The notes: generated from the letters alone by a model not told the origin. Shown: positions 6,942 to 46,512, counted from the stretch's first letter. The stretch is 46,512 nucleotides of DNA from Parcubacteria group bacterium (GCA_028286825.1 JAQBQV010000005.1:1-46512), one strand, 5' to 3'. Program-made: numbers and translations.

Positions 6942-6967
6942 AACTGGAGGCTTCGGCCTCCAGTTTT
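6942..6967 (+). terminator. Intrinsic terminator
   Basis: aactggaggc-ttcg-gcctccagtt then tt. Confidence 0.8.
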
Positions 6968-7040
6968 GGGGGATCGTCTAATGGTAGGACACCAGCCTTT
7001 GAAGCTGAGAATCTTGGTCCGATTCCAAGTCCCCCAGCCA
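6967..7040 (+). tRNA. tRNA-Gln (anticodon TTG), CCA encoded
   Basis: tgggggatcgtctaatggtaggacaccagcctttgaagctgagaatcttggtccgattccaagtcccccagcca; acceptor tggggga/tccccca. Confidence 0.93.
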
Positions 7041-7058: not shown

Positions 7059-7685
7059 ATGAATAAAATCGGGGAAGGGTACTACTACACTGTATACGAA
7101 ATGAGTCCAACTCGAGTGATGAAAAAAGAAACAAGTTATGAGAGTAAACTTGCGAAGCTTCAGAGTTGGTATGGGAATGATTCGCGGTTACTCGAAGAGA
7201 AAATATCTCACCTCGAAGAATCGTCGAAAAAGTCAATTGCACTTTCAAAACGACTTGCAGAGACGCCAGAGTTAAAGGCTGTATTAGGTAATCCTATGTT
7301 CGTCAATGACAGTGAGTACGAACAAGACAAGGCCACGTTGTTGGAATCGTTTCTTGATCAGGAAAACTTCCTACCCTTGCTTCACGAATACATACAAGCA
7401 AACTTTCTGCTTTGGGCTTTTGGATATGGGGACGTCGTCCATAACTTTACTTTCAATGCAGGAGTATCAGTCGTAACTAACAAGGTTATACTTCTGGACT
7501 TCAATGAGCTAACGCAAGATAAGGAGTCAATAGCTAAAGATATTGAAACCCAAAAATGGACAAATCAGGCTTCAATGCTTGGGCTAAAGCGTAAGTACCC
7601 TGATTTATATTCCCAAGTGGAAGCGCTCTTCGGATCAGGTTTTAACATAGATAATGTAGACAAATATTGGGCTAGCCGTTGCTAA
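7059..7685 (+). CDS. Hypothetical protein, possibly protein-kinase-like fold; first unit of the cassette array
   Basis: MNKIGEGYYYTVYEM glycine-rich start, ILLDFNEL DFG-like motif; TATACT-N6-ATG; stop followed by R1 repeat. Confidence 0.7.
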   Translation: MNKIGEGYYYTVYEMSPTRVMKKETSYESKLAKLQSWYGNDSRLLEEKISHLEESSKKSIALSKRLAETPELKAVLGNPMFVNDSEYEQDKATLLESFLDQENFLPLLHEYIQANFLLWAFGYGDVVHNFTFNAGVSVVTNKVILLDFNELTQDKESIAKDIETQKWTNQASMLGLKRKYPDLYSQVEALFGSGFNIDNVDKYWASRC

Positions 7686-7689
7686 GTTT

Positions 7690-7716
7690 GTTCCAACATC
7701 GTCCCAGACGGCCAGC
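7690..7716 (+). repeat. R1 cassette repeat copy 1
   Basis: gttccaacatcgtcccagacggccagc. Confidence 0.9.
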
Positions 7717-7720
7717 AGCT

Positions 7721-7847
7721 TAGTTTTAGTATCGAACGACCACGACAGGTCGAATATCTAAGCCGACAATTGGTAGGTGTCTAAAAGCGTCCTAGACGGA
7801 TCAAAAATCAGAAGTGAGTAAATAGGCTACAATTTTAGTTCGATTCC
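7721..7847 (+). repeat. R2 repeat copy A (~127 bp)
   Basis: tagttttagtatcgaacgaccacgacaggtcgaatat...ttagttcgattcc; near-collinear with 11378-11505. Confidence 0.9.
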
Positions 7848-7946
7848 AAGACGCCCGGTAGCAATTGACATTTAACCAAAAAGATATAATTTGCATTCAG
7901 GGGAATGTACAAAATCCAGATGGATAACTTTTTGACAGGAATACTC

Positions 7947-8522
7947 ATGAAAACATACGAGGTGGAAATCAAAGTTGAACATACGGAAAACCAGCGTCTC
8001 GAGTTACTCCAGAAATTTTTGGAGCTTTGTTTCGTTGATAATGGCGTCGTGTCGCAACAAGACCGCTACACCAAAGCAGTACTATCGCAGTACGGCGATC
8101 CTAAGGCGTTCGATATTGAGCGTTATCGCTCCGAAGACAGCAAGTTTTTCTTTACCAAGAAGGACTGGGAAGTAGAGGGCGGCAAGCCTGTCCGGAAGGA
8201 GGATGAGCGCGAAATAACGCGGAGGGAATTCGATGTAGCAATCGCCGGCCATCCCAATGCGCTCAAAATCATCAAAGACAGACACAGGTTCAAAGCATCG
8301 TTTGAAGGCATAGACATCAGCCTTTCAATCGACAGTGTGAAGTTCGACCACTCCCCCTCGGTGAGACACTTCATGGAACCAGAAATCCTCGTCGAAGATA
8401 AAGCCAGGGTGCAAGAGACGAAGGAGTTTCTTCGTCGATTTGTTTCATTCTTGCTGGATATACCAACGTCGCAGATAGTCGAAGCTCCCGGCATGTTCGC
8501 AATGGCATTCAAGAAGCTGTAA
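7947..8522 (+). CDS. CYTH-domain-like protein (class IV cyclase/triphosphatase superfamily)
   Basis: MKTYEVEIKVE carries the ExExK motif. Confidence 0.65.
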   Translation: MKTYEVEIKVEHTENQRLELLQKFLELCFVDNGVVSQQDRYTKAVLSQYGDPKAFDIERYRSEDSKFFFTKKDWEVEGGKPVRKEDEREITRREFDVAIAGHPNALKIIKDRHRFKASFEGIDISLSIDSVKFDHSPSVRHFMEPEILVEDKARVQETKEFLRRFVSFLLDIPTSQIVEAPGMFAMAFKKL

Positions 8523-8576
8523 ATACCTGCTATGCCGAAAGACCGCATGGTTCGCCCAGCGGCCTTTTGTTTTGCC

Positions 8577-8603
8577 GTTCCAACGTCGTCCCAGACGGTC
8601 AGC
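8577..8603 (+). repeat. R1 cassette repeat copy 2
   Basis: gttccaacgtcgtcccagacggtcagc. Confidence 0.92.
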
Positions 8604-8627
8604 CCGTAAAATTGCTACAATGTGCGT

Positions 8628-9050
8628 ATGGAAGACAAACACCTCGCCGCTGCAGTAGCAATACTTAAAAGTATTCACTATATAACGCTCGCCACCGTTT
8701 GTGAGGATGGCAGCCCCTGGAATTCTCCTGTGTCAGCAACTATAGACGCAGACTTAAATTTTAGTTGGGGTTCTAATGCAGACAATATCCACTCACAAAA
8801 CATTGGAAGAGATGGCCGGGTATTTGTGGTTATCTTTGATTCAAAGGCAGCTGAAGGAACAGGAGAGGGCTTATATCTTAAAGGCACAGCAGAAGAACTT
8901 GGACAGGAAAATGATTCTATTAATAAATACCGATTTATAGCAAATCAAGCCTGGGTTAATGACGAGGCTAAGAATGAGAATGGAAGCTATAAACACGACA
9001 TTCGTGTAGAGCTTAACTTGGATTCTTTGAAGGAATCGTTCTCTAAATAA
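8628..9050 (+). CDS. Pyridoxamine 5'-phosphate oxidase-like flavin-binding family protein
   Basis: ITLATVCEDGSPWNSPVSATIDADLNFSWGSNADNIHSQNI; TACAAT-N6-ATG. Confidence 0.75.
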   Translation: MEDKHLAAAVAILKSIHYITLATVCEDGSPWNSPVSATIDADLNFSWGSNADNIHSQNIGRDGRVFVVIFDSKAAEGTGEGLYLKGTAEELGQENDSINKYRFIANQAWVNDEAKNENGSYKHDIRVELNLDSLKESFSK

Positions 9051-9077
9051 GTTCCAGCGTCGTCCCAGGCGGCCAGC
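9051..9077 (+). repeat. R1 cassette repeat copy 3
   Basis: gttccagcgtcgtcccaggcggccagc, begins at the first base after the stop codon. Confidence 0.92.
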
Positions 9078-9103
9078 AAATAAGAATTTTAAATTGTACT
9101 GAT

Positions 9104-9829
9104 ATGAAATTGATAACTCTCAATACATGGGGTGGCAGAATAGGAAAACCTTTCATCGAATTTATCAAAAGCCATCAAGATGTGGATATTTTCTGTTTTC
9201 AGGAGATATACGAAAATGCTAAAGAAGTAATGGAGGCTGTCTATCCAAATGACATGTTTGATCAGTTTTCTGATCTGCAAGAGTTACTGCCGCACCATCA
9301 AGGTTTTTTTAGGCCCGTCTTGCACGGAGTATATGGTATAGCGACTTTCATTAAAAAAGATATCTCGCTTATAGAAGAAGGAGAATTGTTTATTCATTAC
9401 TCAGCTAGCGAAACAATTACTGATGGCCATCACTCAAGAAATTTGCAGTGGGTTAAATTTAACTTAAACGGAAAAGTGTTTACTGTAATTAATGTTCACG
9501 GCTTATGGAATGGGAAGGGAAAATCTGATACTCCAGAAAGAATTGTGCAATCAAATGTAATTAAGGAGTTTATGAATAAAGCCGAAGGAGAAAAGATATT
9601 AGCTGGAGATTTTAATCTCAACCCTGATACCGAAAGCATCGACATTATTGCAAAAGGAATGAGGAATCTCATAACTGAGAATGCTATTACTTCTACTCGA
9701 ACAAGTTTGTATGAAAAGCAGGGTAAATTTGCAGACTATATCTTTATCTCACCGGATATCCATGTTAAAGACTTCAAGGTCTTGCCAGAAGAGGTTTCTG
9801 ACCATTCTGCTTTGTATCTGGAGATATAG
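9104..9829 (+). CDS. Endonuclease/exonuclease/phosphatase family protein
   Basis: MKLITLNTWGG...DIFCFQEIYE...VINVHG...AGDFNLNPDTESI...DHSALYLEI. Confidence 0.88.
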   Translation: MKLITLNTWGGRIGKPFIEFIKSHQDVDIFCFQEIYENAKEVMEAVYPNDMFDQFSDLQELLPHHQGFFRPVLHGVYGIATFIKKDISLIEEGELFIHYSASETITDGHHSRNLQWVKFNLNGKVFTVINVHGLWNGKGKSDTPERIVQSNVIKEFMNKAEGEKILAGDFNLNPDTESIDIIAKGMRNLITENAITSTRTSLYEKQGKFADYIFISPDIHVKDFKVLPEEVSDHSALYLEI

Positions 9830-9831
9830 AG

Positions 9832-9858
9832 GTTCCCACGTCGTACCACGCGGCCAGC
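9832..9858 (+). repeat. R1 cassette repeat copy 4
   Basis: gttcccacgtcgtaccacgcggccagc. Confidence 0.92.
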
Positions 9859-9884
9859 TCATACTTTTGTGCCATAATTAACTA

Positions 9885-10157
9885 ATGTTTGATTTGACTC
9901 TCGAGACGTTTTTGGAAGTCGTCTATCTGCTTATCGGTATTGCAGTTATATGGAATGTAATTAAGCGCTCAAGTAAATTTGCCGCTAAGCTACAAATATC
10001 TTATATAGAGCAATCGAAGAAAGGAATCATAAATCGTCCTGAACAGTTTGAGGGGAAGTTTTTCTTTATCATGCTTCGAATTGGAATAATCTTCTCCTCA
10101 TTTGTGCTGATGGGAATGGGATATTCAATTCTGTTCGGACCAATTATTCTTAATTAA
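9885..10157 (+). CDS. Small membrane protein
   Basis: 90 aa, two hydrophobic stretches; CATAAT just upstream of ATG. Confidence 0.7.
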   Translation: MFDLTLETFLEVVYLLIGIAVIWNVIKRSSKFAAKLQISYIEQSKKGIINRPEQFEGKFFFIMLRIGIIFSSFVLMGMGYSILFGPIILN

Positions 10158-10173
10158 TATCCAACTCAATGCT

Positions 10174-10350
10174 ATGTGGAAAAAAATAGTAACTTTTTTC
10201 AATAATCCTATAAGAAGATACTATCCCAACGGAGAGGAGATAATCGATCAAAGCCCTCGTGTTTCTATGATATGGAGCATTCCTATTATTCTAGGTGGCT
10301 CAGTGTTAGTTATTTTCTTATTATTACTCTTTTTTGCTTTCGCAGCTTAA
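10174..10350 (+). CDS. 58-aa single-TM protein, not in the ORF track
   Basis: MWKKIVTFFNNPIRRYYPNGEEIIDQSPRVSMIWSIPIILGGSVLVIFLLLLFFAFAA; stop 4 nt before R1 copy 5. Confidence 0.6.
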   Translation: MWKKIVTFFNNPIRRYYPNGEEIIDQSPRVSMIWSIPIILGGSVLVIFLLLLFFAFAA

Positions 10351-10354
10351 TAAG

Positions 10355-10380
10355 GTTCCACGTCGTACCACAGAGCCACC
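10355..10380 (+). repeat. R1 cassette repeat copy 5
   Basis: gttccacgtcgtaccacagagccacc. Confidence 0.85.
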
Positions 10381-10406
10381 TCGTAGGTTTTGTTATAATC
10401 ACAGCA

Positions 10407-10667
10407 ATGAAATGTCCGGAGATAACGATGGGATCAATTCTATTAGCGTTTTTCATTTATGTCTTGGCAGTAAGCATTTGGAATCAAAGACAGATAAGAA
10501 AAATTAGGAATGCCACGGGTGGGCTAATGGCTGGTACGGAAGCTGCGCTAAAAGCGCAAGAGCCAAAGGCAAGGGAGTTGCTGGTTGGCTTTTCTCCAAC
10601 AGAAGCCCTGTCAGGCATTGCCGCTGCGGCTACGCTGTTAAGCCTGTTCTATTCTATTTGTGACTGA
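10407..10667 (+). CDS. Small hypothetical protein with N-terminal TM
   Basis: MKCPEITMGSILLAFFIYVLAVSIWNQRQIRKIRNATGG; TATAAT-N7-ATG. Confidence 0.7.
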   Translation: MKCPEITMGSILLAFFIYVLAVSIWNQRQIRKIRNATGGLMAGTEAALKAQEPKARELLVGFSPTEALSGIAAAATLLSLFYSICD

Positions 10668-10675
10668 TGTAAAAG

Positions 10676-10702
10676 GTTCCCACGTCGTACCAGACGGCCA
10701 TC
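10676..10702 (+). repeat. R1 cassette repeat copy 6
   Basis: gttcccacgtcgtaccagacggccatc. Confidence 0.92.
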
Positions 10703-10719
10703 AGATTAATTTCCAAACC

Positions 10720-11241
10720 ATGAGGTCCTTACTAAGAAAAACTTTTTTGATTCAATCAATCATAGGCAGCTTCATACTCTTACTCACTATTTTTGCTGGA
10801 ATTGCAGATGCAAAAATAACTGATATTAATGCTGAGGTTTTGCAAAAACAAAATCTAGCAAATAACTATTTGATTTTAGCGCTTGGCGCACAAGAAGCAC
10901 ATAACACATACTCTATGTATGTCCCACTAGGAATACAAATAAATCCGCAAACTTTCGAAAGAGCCCCGCAAATCGATTCCAACCCTAAATTAAAGAATGA
11001 TGCAGATAAATTTTATACTGGGACCATATCGAGTTCACAATACTTAACCGAATACGTCAGCTATTTATCAGATGAGTACGCACGCAATTCAGAGACGTAT
11101 AAAGCAGCGGTGTCCGAACTTAATTTAATCTCTAAAAACGGGAGTCCCTGGTCACTCTGGAAAAATATTTTTCTCTTCCTTCAAATCACTTTAATCCTAG
11201 GTTCGATCCTGATCGGCATACGATCTTCAGTGACTAAATAA
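10720..11241 (+). CDS. Hypothetical membrane protein, two TM
   Basis: MRSLLRKTFLIQSIIGSFILLLTIFAGI...IFLFLQITLILGSILIGIRSS. Confidence 0.7.
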   Translation: MRSLLRKTFLIQSIIGSFILLLTIFAGIADAKITDINAEVLQKQNLANNYLILALGAQEAHNTYSMYVPLGIQINPQTFERAPQIDSNPKLKNDADKFYTGTISSSQYLTEYVSYLSDEYARNSETYKAAVSELNLISKNGSPWSLWKNIFLFLQITLILGSILIGIRSSVTK

Positions 11242-11268
11242 GTTCCCACGTCGTACCAAGCGGCCAGC
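11242..11268 (+). repeat. R1 cassette repeat copy 7
   Basis: gttcccacgtcgtaccaagcggccagc, immediately after the stop codon. Confidence 0.92.
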
Positions 11269-11292
11269 AATCTGGAACAAAGACGTGTTTAA

Positions 11293-11370
11293 GAATCGAA
11301 CCAGCTTTTATACAAGAGAGATCCATATTCTAGCCCGCAGTACTAGACCTAGTGACATTCCTAGAGCATC
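11293..11370. repeat. R3 repeat copy B (78 bp)
   Basis: gaatcgaaccagcttttatacaa...cctagtgacattcctagagca; homologous to 15914-15991. Confidence 0.85.
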
Positions 11371-11377
11371 AGCAGTC

Positions 11378-11505
11378 TAGTTTTAGTATCGAAGGACCAC
11401 GACAGGTCGAATATTTAGACCGCCGTTTGGCAGGCGTCTAATAACGTCCCAGAGGGGTCAAAAATCATGAGTGAATATATAGGCCGCATATTTAGTTCGA
11501 TTCCT
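11378..11505 (+). repeat. R2 repeat copy B (~128 bp)
   Basis: tagttttagtatcgaaggaccacgacaggtcgaatatttag...atttagttcgattcc. Confidence 0.9.
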
Positions 11506-11548
11506 ATTCGAGTCACAACATCAGAAATCTATATTGTTTTATAAAACG

Positions 11549-11575
11549 GTTCCCACATCGTACAACACGGCCACA
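11549..11575 (+). repeat. R1 cassette repeat copy 8
   Basis: gttcccacatcgtacaacacggccaca. Confidence 0.85.
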
Positions 11576-11599
11576 CAATTTATGTGTCATAATTAAAGC

Positions 11600-12478
11600 A
11601 TGACTGCCAACGAAAAAATTTCAGTTACGCAACAGGACATACTTGGTGCATATAATAGAAAAGAATACGGCTGGTTCGCTTTGTACATATTGGCAGTTGT
11701 GCTGGCCTCACGATTGGCCGGTGTTTTTGGGGTCGTTGTTTCAGTAATCGTAGTCGCGGCTTTGTATAAGACTCTTAAAAATTCCAAATTTTCAAAAAAG
11801 AAAAAAGTAACTCTTTCTCTTGCTTATATACTTGGCGGAATGGTTGGAACAATTGTAGGAGTTTATCTTCTTTCGAGTGCTATCTATAATCTTTGGCCTC
11901 AAGCATATATCGCCAGCGTACTTTCAAATGATCCCAAAGTCTCTAATGCTGATTTTGTAAGTAGCTCAACTCCGAACTTAGCGTCAAACACGACAACCCG
12001 CGACACAAGTGAAGTTAGTCTAAAATACATTGATGCAAAGTGGAAATTTTCAATTAATTATCCAAAGACATGGACAGTGGACATGAGTGGTACAAATGGG
12101 GATGTCGAATTCGATAATCCTACCGCGGATGACGTAGCCCTTGAAACCATCTCAGTTGGTTTAGCTGATAGCTATACACCAGAGACATATTCCCAGGCCG
12201 TGATGCATAACTTTAAAGTTTCAGGAGATGAAAATTCAAATATTAAAATTATTTCTGAGGGAAGAACGACATTAGGAGGTAATCCCGCCTATGAATATGA
12301 AGTCATCTACAATTATGTAAATTCAGGTAAGAACTATCCATTCCACGGAATTTACATTACTTCCATATTCAATAACTTGGGATACACGATTTTTGCGTCA
12401 TCCTTTGAGACTACTTGGGCTCAAAATATTCAGCTCTTTAATTCTTCGATTGAGTCCTTCACATTTTCGACCCAATAA
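11600..12478 (+). CDS. Membrane protein with PsbP-like extracellular domain
   Basis: Hydrophobic N-terminal region, then YIDAKWKFSINYPKTWTVDMSG...; CATAAT upstream of ATG. Confidence 0.65.
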   Translation: MTANEKISVTQQDILGAYNRKEYGWFALYILAVVLASRLAGVFGVVVSVIVVAALYKTLKNSKFSKKKKVTLSLAYILGGMVGTIVGVYLLSSAIYNLWPQAYIASVLSNDPKVSNADFVSSSTPNLASNTTTRDTSEVSLKYIDAKWKFSINYPKTWTVDMSGTNGDVEFDNPTADDVALETISVGLADSYTPETYSQAVMHNFKVSGDENSNIKIISEGRTTLGGNPAYEYEVIYNYVNSGKNYPFHGIYITSIFNNLGYTIFASSFETTWAQNIQLFNSSIESFTFSTQ

Positions 12479-12480
12479 AA

Positions 12481-12507
12481 GTTGCCATGTCGTACCACGC
12501 GGTCACA
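12481..12507 (+). repeat. R1 cassette repeat copy 9
   Basis: gttgccatgtcgtaccacgcggtcaca. Confidence 0.85.
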
Positions 12508-12535
12508 TAGCGTTTTTTGTGTTTATATAGTTAAT

Positions 12536-12790
12536 ATGGAATTTGCTCACGTCTACAATATCTGTGGATCGCTCATCGCAATAGCAATTGGGATACTGAT
12601 CCTTACTTTCCCTAAACAAGCATTAGAAAAACAAAGAAAAACTATTATAAAACTTGCGAAGGCACTACCGTCCATTTATACGAAGGCACTCACAAAAACA
12701 GAGCGGCAGATTATGAGGGATAATTTCGTAGTCGCTTGCGGATTAGTTGGTATTGGATTTTTTGGACTAATTATCAGTTTTTCTAGCTAG
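12536..12790 (+). CDS. Small membrane protein
   Basis: MEFAHVYNICGSLIAIAIGILILTF..., two hydrophobic segments. Confidence 0.65.
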   Translation: MEFAHVYNICGSLIAIAIGILILTFPKQALEKQRKTIIKLAKALPSIYTKALTKTERQIMRDNFVVACGLVGIGFFGLIISFSS

Positions 12791-12794
12791 TAAG

Positions 12795-12821
12795 ATTCTC
12801 ACGTCGTACCACGCGGTAATT
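12795..12821 (+). repeat. R1 cassette repeat copy 10 (diverged)
   Basis: attctcacgtcgtaccacgcggtaatt. Confidence 0.75.
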
Positions 12822-42861: not shown

Positions 42862-42934
42862 GGGCCGTTAGCTCAGTTGGTAGAGCACCTCATTTGCAAT
42901 GAGGGGGTCGCAGGTTCAAATCCTGTACGGTCCA
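42862..42934 (+). tRNA. tRNA-Ala (anticodon TGC), CCA not encoded
   Basis: gggccgttagctcagttggtagagcacctcatttgcaatgagggggtcgcaggttcaaatcctgtacggtcca. Confidence 0.95.
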
Positions 42935-42984
42935 CAAATTGAATTGGAGAGCCCCGGAAGGGGCTTTTCAATTTGTGGACCGTA
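42926..42984. repeat. 18-bp perfect inverted repeat overlapping the tRNA-Ala 3' end, with nested hairpin
   Basis: tacggtccacaaattgaa ... agcccc-ggaa-ggggct ... ttcaatttgtggaccgta. Confidence 0.95.
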
Positions 42985-42985
42985 A

Positions 42986-43006
42986 GCAGAGTGCGGGGCA
43001 CTCTGC
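42986..43006. repeat. 9-bp perfect palindrome splitting an inverted copy of the tRNA-Ala 3' end
   Basis: gcagagtgc-ggg-gcactctgc. Confidence 0.95.
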
Positions 43007-43107
43007 GGCAGGATTTGAAGGACGGAACAAGTCGAGCCAGCAGGTGAGACAGTGAGGCAGGGTAGCGGAAATTCATGAGCGACGGCGAACGAATTATCCG
43101 TGACCAG

Positions 43108-43124
43108 ATCCTGTACGGTCCACA
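43108..43124 (+). repeat. 17-bp exact direct copy of the tRNA-Ala 3' end (att-like)
   Basis: atcctgtacggtccaca, identical to 42920-42936. Confidence 0.95.
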
Positions 43125-43156
43125 CTTGTTCACAAAGTCAAGGTTTCCGTCATTCC

Positions 43157-43190
43157 GTATTGGTGCGCTTAGGTTTCGGGAGGTTCTAAT
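43157..43190 (+). repeat. 34-bp imperfect direct repeat, left copy flanking SIR2-HerA
   Basis: gtattggtgcgcttaggtttcgggaggttctaat; 26/34 matches to 46288-46321. Confidence 0.85.
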
Positions 43191-43223
43191 CTTAAAGAAA
43201 CGGAAGTTGAAAAAGAGGCTTAA

Positions 43224-44297
43224 ATGTTTCATAATTCAACTATGCTCAACCAGTCTTCTCTAATAAGAGAAATACGAAAAACAATAGACAGCGCGAATAT
43301 CAACTTCTTGGTTGGAGCCGGTCTTTCTAGGCCTTTTCTTGATGTACTCAATGATATTGAAGTATTTCTCAGTGATGATTCAAAAACACCGGAAGAAATA
43401 AGAAATAAAAAGAAGGAGTACTTCAACAAGGTGATGCTTGGGAATCTAAAAATAAGAGACGCTATCTTAGATTCTAGTAAAGATGAGGTTTTGGCTGACT
43501 ATAAGAATTTCTACAAAATTATTAATAATCTTGTTCTAAGGAGAGAGAATTCCATTCTAACTAAGCAGGTGAATGTATTTACAACAAATATAGATATTTT
43601 TTCAGAAAAAGCTTTGGAGGAGACGGGTTTAGAATTTAATGATGGATTTAATGGACGTTTTAACCCGACATTTAATTTAGGAAACTTCAAGAAGTCATAC
43701 TTCATGAAGAGCCTGCATTACGAAAATACTTCTGAAATACCTGTCTTTAATATACTTAAAATTCATGGCTCGCTGACCTGGAGATACGAGAAGGTTGGTA
43801 ATGATGATCTAATTCTCCTTGATAGGGATTTGGAGAATACAAGAAACATAGAAGCTAAGAAAGATACCCCAGATTTCGACGACTGTTATAAGAAACTTAC
43901 AGTCATCAATCCAACTAAGGATAAATTTGAGCACACACTCCTTCGTCAGTATTTTTATGACCTTTTGAGAATTTATTCAAATGAACTAGAGAAAGAGAAT
44001 AGCGTACTTTTTGTAATGGGTTTTTCCTTCGCAGATGCTCACATCAGGGACATGACAGAAAGAGTTGCTGCCTCAAATCCTACTCTCAAGATATATATAT
44101 TTTCGCATGGTGAGATGACCCCTCTTTATAGGAAATTGAAAGATGACGCTAAGAATAAAAACATTGAAATTTTAATTCCTGAGGAAGGTAAAAATTACAA
44201 TCTCAAGACACTGAACACTGAGATTTTCGAAGAGATTATCCACTTTGACGAGGGCGTTGAAGAAACTCCTGTAGTTGAGCAAGGAGATGAAAAATAA
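43224..44297 (+). CDS. SIR2-like domain protein
   Basis: INFLVGAGLSRPFLDVL, VFTTNIDIFSEKAL, KIHGSLTWRYE, LFVMGFSFADAHIRDMT. Confidence 0.88.
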   Translation: MFHNSTMLNQSSLIREIRKTIDSANINFLVGAGLSRPFLDVLNDIEVFLSDDSKTPEEIRNKKKEYFNKVMLGNLKIRDAILDSSKDEVLADYKNFYKIINNLVLRRENSILTKQVNVFTTNIDIFSEKALEETGLEFNDGFNGRFNPTFNLGNFKKSYFMKSLHYENTSEIPVFNILKIHGSLTWRYEKVGNDDLILLDRDLENTRNIEAKKDTPDFDDCYKKLTVINPTKDKFEHTLLRQYFYDLLRIYSNELEKENSVLFVMGFSFADAHIRDMTERVAASNPTLKIYIFSHGEMTPLYRKLKDDAKNKNIEILIPEEGKNYNLKTLNTEIFEEIIHFDEGVEETPVVEQGDEK

Positions 44298-46179
44298 CGC
44301 GCTTACAAGTACTTATATTATCGACAATTCGATATTTAGAATCGGAGTAGTTTTTTCTGTTGAAGGACAATCGATAAAGGTAAAGGTTGATAAAGGTAAA
44401 AATAGTTCATCCGTCCTGTATAAGGGAAGCATCATTCAAAATATTTCTGTAGGAGGGTACATAAAGATAAAAAAAGGATTCTCAGAAATGATTGGGAAGA
44501 TCGAGGGAGAATCTATATCCGAAGATAAGGAATTCTCAAGAGTAAGTTACAAGAGTAATAAAGAAAAAATAAACAGGGTACTGAACGTAAAGATTCTTGG
44601 CTTTATTGAGGAGGGTACATTTTGCCGCGGTATCAAGGAGTTACCACTAATTGATAATAAATGTTTCCTGCTAAGCAAGGAAGAATTTGAAGAGATTCAT
44701 AACTTTATTCAAAAGGGCGACGAAAGAATTGAGGTCGGGGCACTAGAATACGATGACGGCCAAAAGATTGATCTAGGAATAAACAGTCTTTTTGCTAGTC
44801 ATATTGGCATTTTTGGAAATACAGGAAGTGGCAAGTCATATACATTGGCCAAGCTATACCGGGAGCTTTTTAAAAAGTTTAAAGATAGTTCAAATTTTAA
44901 ATCGAAAGCAAAATTCTTTCTGATCGATTTCAATGGTGAATATGCGGACGATGACGTAATTATCGAAAAGAAATATAAGAATATTTATAAACTTTCAACT
45001 AGCTCTCCTAATCCTAGTGATAAATTCCCAGTTAAGAAGGAAACCCTAAGGGACGTTGGGTTTTGGTCAATCTTTTTAGAAGCAACAGAGAAAACTCAGA
45101 TACCTTTTATAAATAGAGCAATTAAGGATTCTTATATTGAATCTAAATTGAATACAGAATTAAATTTTAAAACCTTAATAAAAGATAAAATTGAGGCCGC
45201 TACTACAGTAAACGGAAAGAACATAGATAGGGCTTTAACAATCGATTTACTCTATGAGCTAGCTTCCTTTCTTGATAATGAAAGTTTGCGTCAAGCAGGA
45301 CATTATTTTAAACAAAATCTATCCGGAGGAAACGAGAATATTAGTTTTTATTTGAAAACTAACCTGGTACCACCAAACGACAAACTTTTTAGTGACAGGC
45401 CAGCCTTCAAGGAAAAAATTAGTGAGCAGATTGACCTTGTAACATTCGAAGATTTTTCAGGATTATCAGTCATTAAGAAAGTAGGGTTAAGGATTATAAT
45501 TAAGTATTACGACGAAATGATCAGAGGGTTCTCAAACCGTGAACATCTTTCACCCCTGATTAAAAGAATGGAAAAAAGAATCTTAGATTTAGAGAAAGTT
45601 ATCACTGTTCACGGAAGAGAAAGATTTGCAAAAAATCTTACGATTATTTCTCTAAAAGATGTGAATTTAGATATTAGAAAGATGCTGCCATTGCTTATTT
45701 GTAAGGAACTTTATGATACTAAAAAGGAAGCCAATAATAAGGATACATCGCTTCATATAATTATTGATGAGGCACACAATATTCTCTCAGGTAATTCTGA
45801 GAGGGAAAGTGAACAATGGAAAGACTATCGACTTGAAACCTTCGAGGAAATCATCAAGGAAGGCAGAAAATTTGCTACATTCCTTACAATTTCAAGTCAA
45901 AGACCATCCGATATCTCTCCAACGATTATTTCCCAATTACATAACTATTTTCTTCATCGGCTGATAAATAATAATGATTTGCTTGCTGTTGAAAAAACTA
46001 TTGCGTATTTAGATAAAGTTTCTGCTGATTCAATTCCTAATTTAGCAACTGGTACATGTATTTTGGCTGGTTTACTAGCTCAAATCCCAGTCGTCATGAA
46101 GGTAAATAAAATTAGTAATAAAAAGAATCAACCAGTGAGTCAGACGATAAATCTTTTAGAGAAGTGGAAGCCTGTATAG
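44287..46179 (+). CDS. HerA-like ATPase (DUF87 type)
   Basis: IGIFGNTGSGKSYTLAKLYREL (Walker A), FFLIDFNGEYAD, LHIIIDEAHNIL (Walker B), SSQRPSDISPTIISQLHNYFLHRL; ATG at 44287 has aaggag upstream, overlapping the SIR2 stop. Confidence 0.9.
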   Translation: MKNNALTSTYIIDNSIFRIGVVFSVEGQSIKVKVDKGKNSSSVLYKGSIIQNISVGGYIKIKKGFSEMIGKIEGESISEDKEFSRVSYKSNKEKINRVLNVKILGFIEEGTFCRGIKELPLIDNKCFLLSKEEFEEIHNFIQKGDERIEVGALEYDDGQKIDLGINSLFASHIGIFGNTGSGKSYTLAKLYRELFKKFKDSSNFKSKAKFFLIDFNGEYADDDVIIEKKYKNIYKLSTSSPNPSDKFPVKKETLRDVGFWSIFLEATEKTQIPFINRAIKDSYIESKLNTELNFKTLIKDKIEAATTVNGKNIDRALTIDLLYELASFLDNESLRQAGHYFKQNLSGGNENISFYLKTNLVPPNDKLFSDRPAFKEKISEQIDLVTFEDFSGLSVIKKVGLRIIIKYYDEMIRGFSNREHLSPLIKRMEKRILDLEKVITVHGRERFAKNLTIISLKDVNLDIRKMLPLLICKELYDTKKEANNKDTSLHIIIDEAHNILSGNSERESEQWKDYRLETFEEIIKEGRKFATFLTISSQRPSDISPTIISQLHNYFLHRLINNNDLLAVEKTIAYLDKVSADSIPNLATGTCILAGLLAQIPVVMKVNKISNKKNQPVSQTINLLEKWKPV

Positions 46180-46287
46180 AAAAAACGGGAGTAAGTAATA
46201 AAGGTTCTAATCTCCGAACTTCTCTAGGCTCTCAAGCTCATTCTCGTCCCTCCAGACCATCCCACGAGTCCACGAGGCGTAAGAAAT

Positions 46288-46321
46288 GTATTGGTCTGGA
46301 TTGGATAAGGGAGGTTCTAAT
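46288..46321 (+). repeat. 34-bp imperfect direct repeat, right copy flanking SIR2-HerA
   Basis: gtattggtctggattggataagggaggttctaat; first 8 and last 13 bases identical to the left copy. Confidence 0.85.
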
Positions 46322-46412
46322 ATTCTGCAAGAATGACCACCCGAGAAGACATTGGTGCTGAACTAAGTCTTTCGCCTTAAGAATGCTACATGCTTCAAGA
46401 GTTCCAAATTAA

Positions 46413-46512
46413 CTAGAGAAACCTGATCATGTCCGTGTTTATTTGTGCGCTAGACACTTTGTAGCGAGTATCGCTCGTGTCGTATTTGTAACGCACCTCG
46501 TGTATCACGACG
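46413..46512 (-). CDS. Possible C-terminal fragment of a minus-strand gene entering from the right edge
   Basis: Open frame ...VVIHEVRYKYDTSDTRYKVSSAQINTDMIRFL-stop; short, no motif. Confidence 0.2.
   Translation of the reverse strand, partial: VVIHEVRYKYDTSDTRYKVSSAQINTDMIRFL

Follow-up and report, generated by a model that had tools for sequence, protein, structure and literature searches.

The 46,512-nucleotide stretch of Parcubacteria group bacterium DNA analysed here (GCA_028286825.1, JAQBQV010000005.1:1-46512; the whole stretch is referred to as the window) contains an integron-like array of small gene units, which are closed by copies of a dispersed 27-bp site named R1. Ten copies of R1, all co-oriented on the + strand, were found within 7690-12821, with starts at 7690, 8577, 9051, 9832, 10354, 10676, 11242, 11549, 12481 and 12795. 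These copies scored 23-45 bits with a weight matrix. In the controls for this matrix, a shuffled 364-kb contig gave zero matches of at least 15 bits and 2 Mb of random DNA gave zero matches of at least 18 bits. The array starts directly after a tRNA-Gln (TTG) gene on the + strand (6967-7040), which was predicted by ARAGORN and by the Rfam tRNA model; the Rfam scan of the window returned two tRNAs and nothing more. The 3' end of this tRNA-Gln, GGTCCGATTCCAAGTCCCCCAGC (7016-7038, +), is the head site of the array and is attI-like, as the same tail heads the arrays of relatives, whether inside the tRNA gene or in stand-alone form.

The units of the window array are all on the + strand. The open reading frame (ORF) of unit 1 (7059-7685) encodes 208 amino acids (aa) with no convincing family in Pfam or NCBIfam, and is followed by R1 copy 1 (7690-7716) and by copy A of a non-coding element (7717-7862) having a degenerate tRNA-tail-like sequence at its end. 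The unit 2 gene (7905-8522; 205 aa) showed a weak CYTH-domain match, and its R1 copy 2 (8577-8603) is preceded by a terminator-like hairpin. Unit 3 encodes a PNPOx-like flavin-binding protein (8628-9050; PF01243, E = 1.5e-8) whose stop codon is abutted by R1 copy 3 (9051-9077), and unit 4 a member of the endonuclease/exonuclease/phosphatase family (9104-9829; PF03372, E = 4e-13) ahead of R1 copy 4 (9832-9858). Unit 5 holds two genes, an ORF for a small protein of 90 aa (9885-10157) and one for a small hydrophobic protein of 58 aa that was read from the sequence (10174-10350), and ends in R1 copy 5 (10354-10380), a one-base shift variant. A small membrane-like protein of 86 aa (unit 6, 10407-10667) lies before R1 copy 6 (10676-10702), and a 173-aa protein of no family (unit 7, 10720-11241) before R1 copy 7 (11242-11268), which again abuts the stop codon. 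Unit 8 is non-coding, holds copy B of the non-coding element (11359-11510) and ends in R1 copy 8 (11549-11575), which non-coding DNA precedes. The unit 9 gene (11600-12478; 292 aa) has a PsbP-like domain (PF01789, E = 2.9e-9) and is followed by the degenerate R1 copy 9 (12481-12507), and unit 10 encodes a small membrane-like protein of 84 aa (12536-12790) ahead of R1 copy 10 (12795-12821), the most degenerate one, at the distal end of the array. Stop codons were found 0-10 nt ahead of most R1 copies. The GC content in the array is mostly 0.38-0.43 (one kb at 0.47) as compared with about 0.50-0.54 upstream. A preliminary description of this DNA had listed ten R1 copies in one orientation, the stop codons just before most of them with copies 2 and 8 as exceptions, and the higher AT content, all of which were borne out. 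Nine of its R1 positions were exact and copy 5 had been put at 10355, and it had missed both the origin of the array at tRNA-Gln and the separate attI-like head.

The non-coding element copies A and B are about 82% identical across 127 nt. This repeat of about 130-146 nt (7717-7862 and 11359-11510) ends in a degenerate sequence resembling the tRNA-Gln tail, and its first 30 nt were also seen after the head in L050, after tRNA-Gln in L148 and in L200 (genome G059). It is possibly a non-coding cassette.

The source genome is a 675-kb draft in 24 contigs and about 70% complete. The R1 pattern occurs 18 times in forward and 0 times in reverse orientation in the whole assembly, and the reversed-pattern control gave 0. 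A second R1 array with 11 copies was found on contig C8 (L001:360-7059), and the scan of the whole assembly revealed no R1 pattern beyond these two arrays. The copies have one orientation inside each array, and the ORF-bearing units of this genome all read in the R1 direction. One R1 in the second array (L001:2557-2640) is split by about 57 nt between ...CCCA and CGGCCAGCTCG, and this insert has a small hairpin; a similar split R1 may exist in L004.

The R1 site and its tRNA-Gln-tail head

The R1 motif derived from 276 distinct copies is A.AAAG GTTCCAACATCGTCCCAGACnGCCAGC AA, and it has sharp edges and random flanks. R1 showed no folding on either strand (z = +0.4 and +0.5) and no inverted arms or dyad (permutation fraction 0.73), and the RYYYAAC/GTTRRRY boxes of attC sites were absent from its consensus. 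The stand-alone head, which heads arrays elsewhere on the chromosomes, repeats 23 nt of the tRNA-Gln tail, GGTTCGATCCCTAGTCT(C/G)CCAGC. This 23-nt tail heads nearly all arrays with a visible left side, and most such arrays in the wider sample. In several other species, the array lies directly 3' of tRNA-Gln and in the same direction.

R1 and the head could be aligned over their full lengths with one 6-nt insertion and a gap of one base, and 0 of 5000 shuffles were as good. The alignment scores of R1 with four other tRNA tails were much lower than with that of tRNA-Gln. From these sequence comparisons, we read R1 as a likely descendant of the tRNA-Gln tail carrying a 6-nt insertion. The stand-alone heads often end in CTGCCAGC, as R1 does, and true tRNA genes in CTCCCAGC, which they would keep because the acceptor stem requires it. 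In several genomes (L145, L155, L141, L164, L151, L165 and L166), the DNA just after tRNA-Gln carries other short sequences that are shared among them, for example aactgagcgagagcgaaggcg; these perhaps belong to other element families using the same tRNA end.

Cassette units and their exchange between species

The units were characterised in a set of 174 from many species. Their median length is 504 bp, one main ORF spans about three quarters of a unit, and the units bear no functional relation to one another. Among the 165 ORF-bearing units, the main ORF runs in the R1 direction in 118 and against it in 47. The stop codons of the former lie at a median of 8 nt ahead of GTTCC, and the reversed-gene units of relatives have promoter-like and terminator-like sequences at their reversed ends. 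Methyltransferases, NUDIX, histidine phosphatase and HAD hydrolases were the most frequent of the families found in 140 cassette proteins, with only three or four members each. PADLOC recognised only two families of four members each in these 140 proteins, and therefore the arrays do not constitute a defence island.

The content of arrays was found to differ between species at conserved loci. When the genomes G005 and G004, from two related species, were compared at the same locus, the flanks agreed at 79% identity as far as 11 nt beyond the head and resumed afterwards, and the DNA between them holds 10 R1 copies in G005 and 4 in G004 with unrelated genes. The same pattern of conserved flanks and content replaced from the head was observed for the pairs L050/L057 and L047/L048. 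The locus of the latter pair is at tRNA-Pro, and in G059 and G086 the tRNA-Pro and tRNA-Gly are nearly adjacent there with neither head nor array, which is an empty site. One cassette in the tRNA-Gln array of G005 is homologous exactly from R1 to R1 with a cassette in another array of G004; a second cassette is common to G005 and G002, and a third cassette protein family is shared with the Woesebacteria (Microgenomates) array. The preliminary description had proposed the capture or shuffling of cassettes by means of a short, non-canonical site, and these findings agree with it: the exchange starts from the head, R1 lies at the unit borders in the surveyed arrays, and one cassette was shared from R1 to R1 at two different loci. 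Random scatter of R1 over the genome or full conservation of the units between relatives, which would have spoken against this proposal, was not what we found.

Two R1 types alternate in the mixed array L046, both full-length and differing along the whole site, and no mosaic copies were found. The absence of mosaics, together with the need for the tRNA gene to stay intact, argues for an exchange at the right edge, CCAGC|AA, and with such an exchange R1 would travel with the gene to its left, like attC. In 20 of 24 arrays, R1 scores become lower the farther a copy lies from the head (mean rho -0.50, with none of 5000 permutations reaching such a value); related loci were included in this test, so that the arrays are not fully independent. 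Such a trend would arise if new cassettes joined the array at its head end and the older distal sites decayed, implying head-proximal entry as in integrons. All arrays of G059, whose whole draft was examined, are oriented with the local GC skew, which marks the replication direction. In L049 (G004 C3:66000-80000), two headed arrays face apart across about 4 kb, which would be expected if the replication direction switches between them.

These results together suggested that the R1 arrays are, with good probability, gene-cassette arrays built by site-specific recombination in which the tRNA-Gln tails serve as attI-like and R1 as attC-like sites. A cassette would consist of one gene, sometimes two or a non-coding piece, with its R1 behind. 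New cassettes would enter next to the head, either the tRNA-Gln 3' end or its stand-alone copy, probably through a circular intermediate. The exchange would take place at the common right edge (...CCAGC|AA), leaving the tRNA intact and moving the whole R1 with the upstream gene, and a tyrosine recombinase working in trans is the probable enzyme.

Candidate recombinases and competing explanations

Three array-rich and near-complete genomes (G004, G059 and G086) encode one clear tyrosine recombinase each, of about 310 aa. The only tyrosine recombinase of the source genome, which is about 70% complete, passed the XerA model NF040815 (score 237.9, cut-off 220) and failed the IntI model TIGR02249 (126, cut-off 265), and no tyrosine recombinase match was located in the arrays of this genome. 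The XerA gene is not consistently beside the arrays, and in G086 an R1 overlaps its end. Among the protein clusters near arrays, XerA itself, in conserved synteny, was the only shared integrase. Three other enzymes were considered and rejected: serine recombinases, which occur in 10 of 13 array genomes and are absent from the array-rich G059, G086 and G030; Y1 transposase, in 1 of 10; and reverse transcriptase, from the idea of tRNA priming, in 2 of 10. Each of the three is lacking in several array-rich genomes. A large serine recombinase lies about 2.4 kb off the array in CP011214 (G106, a Woesebacteria chromosome; 361.2-368.4 kb), with no general association. The XerA-like protein is the one candidate that every near-complete array-rich genome checked was found to encode, and its role as the enzyme is tentatively put somewhat below even odds; about the same likelihood is given to an enzyme of an unrecognised kind or one supplied by a transient element. 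A wider proposal, in which the housekeeping XerA captures single genes at tRNA-Gln-derived heads through R1, and the heads can seed new arrays around the chromosome, in a platform non-homologous to integrons and widespread in Patescibacteria, is conceivable and rather doubtful in this full form.

Several observations weigh against cassette capture by site-specific recombination as described above. The tyrosine recombinase or Xer paralog linked to the arrays, which the preliminary description had suggested looking for, was sought and no dedicated one was found, and XerA is also present in genomes without arrays. R1 lacks the inverted arms expected of the core site of a classical tyrosine recombinase. 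Some arrays of the larger sample had no detectable head in the DNA examined, and of the 24 arrays scored for R1 decay 3 oppose the trend and one is flat. Because one genome was taken per species, gain and loss are inferred between species, and movement was not observed directly.

The anchoring at a tRNA 3' end would also be expected if independent integrase-bearing islands or satellites had inserted serially at tRNA-Gln and R1 were their att scar, with no dedicated cassette system, and additive islands with tRNA-tail repeats are known (PMC10872708, PMC7771536). However, the units here measure about 500 bp and hold a single gene and no integrase, R1 is related to the tRNA tail but has the 6-nt insertion and is conserved as a 27-bp site in its own right, XerA is the only clear tyrosine integrase in array-rich genomes such as G059, and arrays are also found at stand-alone heads away from tRNA genes, which makes serial insertion unlikely. 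We consider it improbable, too, that R1 is a dif-like site used by the Xer of the cell with recombination in the middle of the site, as in the pdif modules of Acinetobacter. A single XerA-like recombinase in nearly all genomes, and as the sole one in some array-rich genomes, would suit such modules, but R1 has no inverted arms and is unlike dif, the mixed array L046 shows no mid-site exchange, and the arrays are headed by a different type of site. The canonical dif pattern search gave no credible site for comparison, and the palindromes near the G059 terminus included no clear dif.

Array geometry, single-gene cassettes and insertion polarity match those of integrons, so that a canonical integron minus its integrase (CALIN) might be thought of. 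This is very unlikely with no IntI present, with the only tyrosine recombinase assigned to XerA by its models, with R1 unfolded on both strands and free of attC boxes, and with tRNA tails as heads. Hardly more can be said for R1 as a promoter or operator common to a regulon of accessory genes. R1 does lie shortly ahead of many start codons and a -10-like box is present about 40 nt downstream, but the 47 units of relatives with an opposite-strand ORF and the replacement of content from head to R1 contradict a regulon promoter, and R1 also bounds non-coding units and closes the array after the last gene.

Relation to known systems and distribution in Patescibacteria

The arrays share with integrons the single-gene cassettes of about 0.5 kb, each ending in a co-oriented site, a distinct head site, a cassette content of hydrolases, NUDIX proteins, methyltransferases and unknowns and, as proposed here, the head-proximal insertion and the movement of the site with the upstream gene. 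They differ in the absence of IntI, in the head being a tRNA-Gln 3' end, in having several arrays per genome and many reversed-gene cassettes, and in R1 being 27-33 bp, conserved in sequence and unstructured, whereas attC sites are variable in sequence with a conserved fold. The pdif modules of Acinetobacter similarly consist of gene units between short conserved sites with a possible use of host Xer, but R1 lacks the 11-6-11 inverted-arm structure, and the sites here are all direct, with a separate head and chromosomal arrays. The preliminary description had cited integrons and pdif modules for comparison; the site itself is neither attC- nor dif-like.

Additive flexible genomic islands with tRNA-tail repeats have been described at tRNA-Lys in Methylopumilus (PMC10872708) and in Actinomarinales (PMC7771536); the repeats there duplicate the tail of the tRNA or a part of its gene, and the Methylopumilus insertions reach up to 42 kb (PMC10872708, PMC7771536). 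The arrays resemble them in the small genomes, the insertion at a tRNA 3' end and the tRNA-tail-related repeats that mark insertions. Here, the heads are such tail copies, and R1 is a relative of them with the 6-nt insertion and its own conserved motif; each unit has this distinct site, and the stand-alone heads found arrays at new loci. Tycheposons are likewise a tRNA-anchored means of accessory gene acquisition in streamlined bacteria, but their size is 4-200 kb and they have a tyrosine recombinase of their own (PMC10872708), whereas the units here have the median length given above and no tyrosine recombinase. The system is integron-like in its working, yet no integron, and resembles the tRNA-anchored additive islands of streamlined aquatic bacteria.

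The distribution of R1 was surveyed with a sequence-only model in genomes of the same family and of the class. R1 was present in 49 of 105 same-family genomes with 1-30 copies each. Of 289 genomes sampled across the class, 20 had it, and these are scattered among distant families. When one genome for each of 85,462 species was scanned for the exact pattern, 76 stretches were obtained, of which nearly all carry Patescibacteria titles. They include Parcubacteria, Adlerbacteria, Kaiserbacteria, Nomurabacteria and one complete Woesebacteria chromosome, and a few have no title beyond bacterium or uncultured bacterium. No R1 was found in IMG/VR. Such a patchy spread would suit a feature that is mobile or easily lost. 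Several arrays occur per genome, about nine in the case of G059. No reports of such arrays in Patescibacteria were found in the papers searched, among which were no subscription papers or preprints. Elsewhere in the window, the GC content falls from 0.53 to 0.33-0.37 past a tRNA-Ala gene (42862-42935) in a region with long ORFs (42862-46512), a possible second tRNA-anchored island.

The Patescibacteria have genomes of roughly 0.7 Mb with few mobile elements. The arrays offer a concrete and countable route by which they may gain genes, since each genome can hold single accessory genes by the dozen and species exchange them, and R1 permits the mining of Patescibacteria cassette genes from metagenomes. 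What distinguishes the arrays from additive islands is the conserved site that each unit has at its own end and the heads that found arrays away from tRNA genes. The Patescibacteria thus seem to possess an integron-like gene capture without the integron integrase, which, if true, would be a second and independently evolved form of cassette capture, built on a tRNA tail instead of attI and attC.

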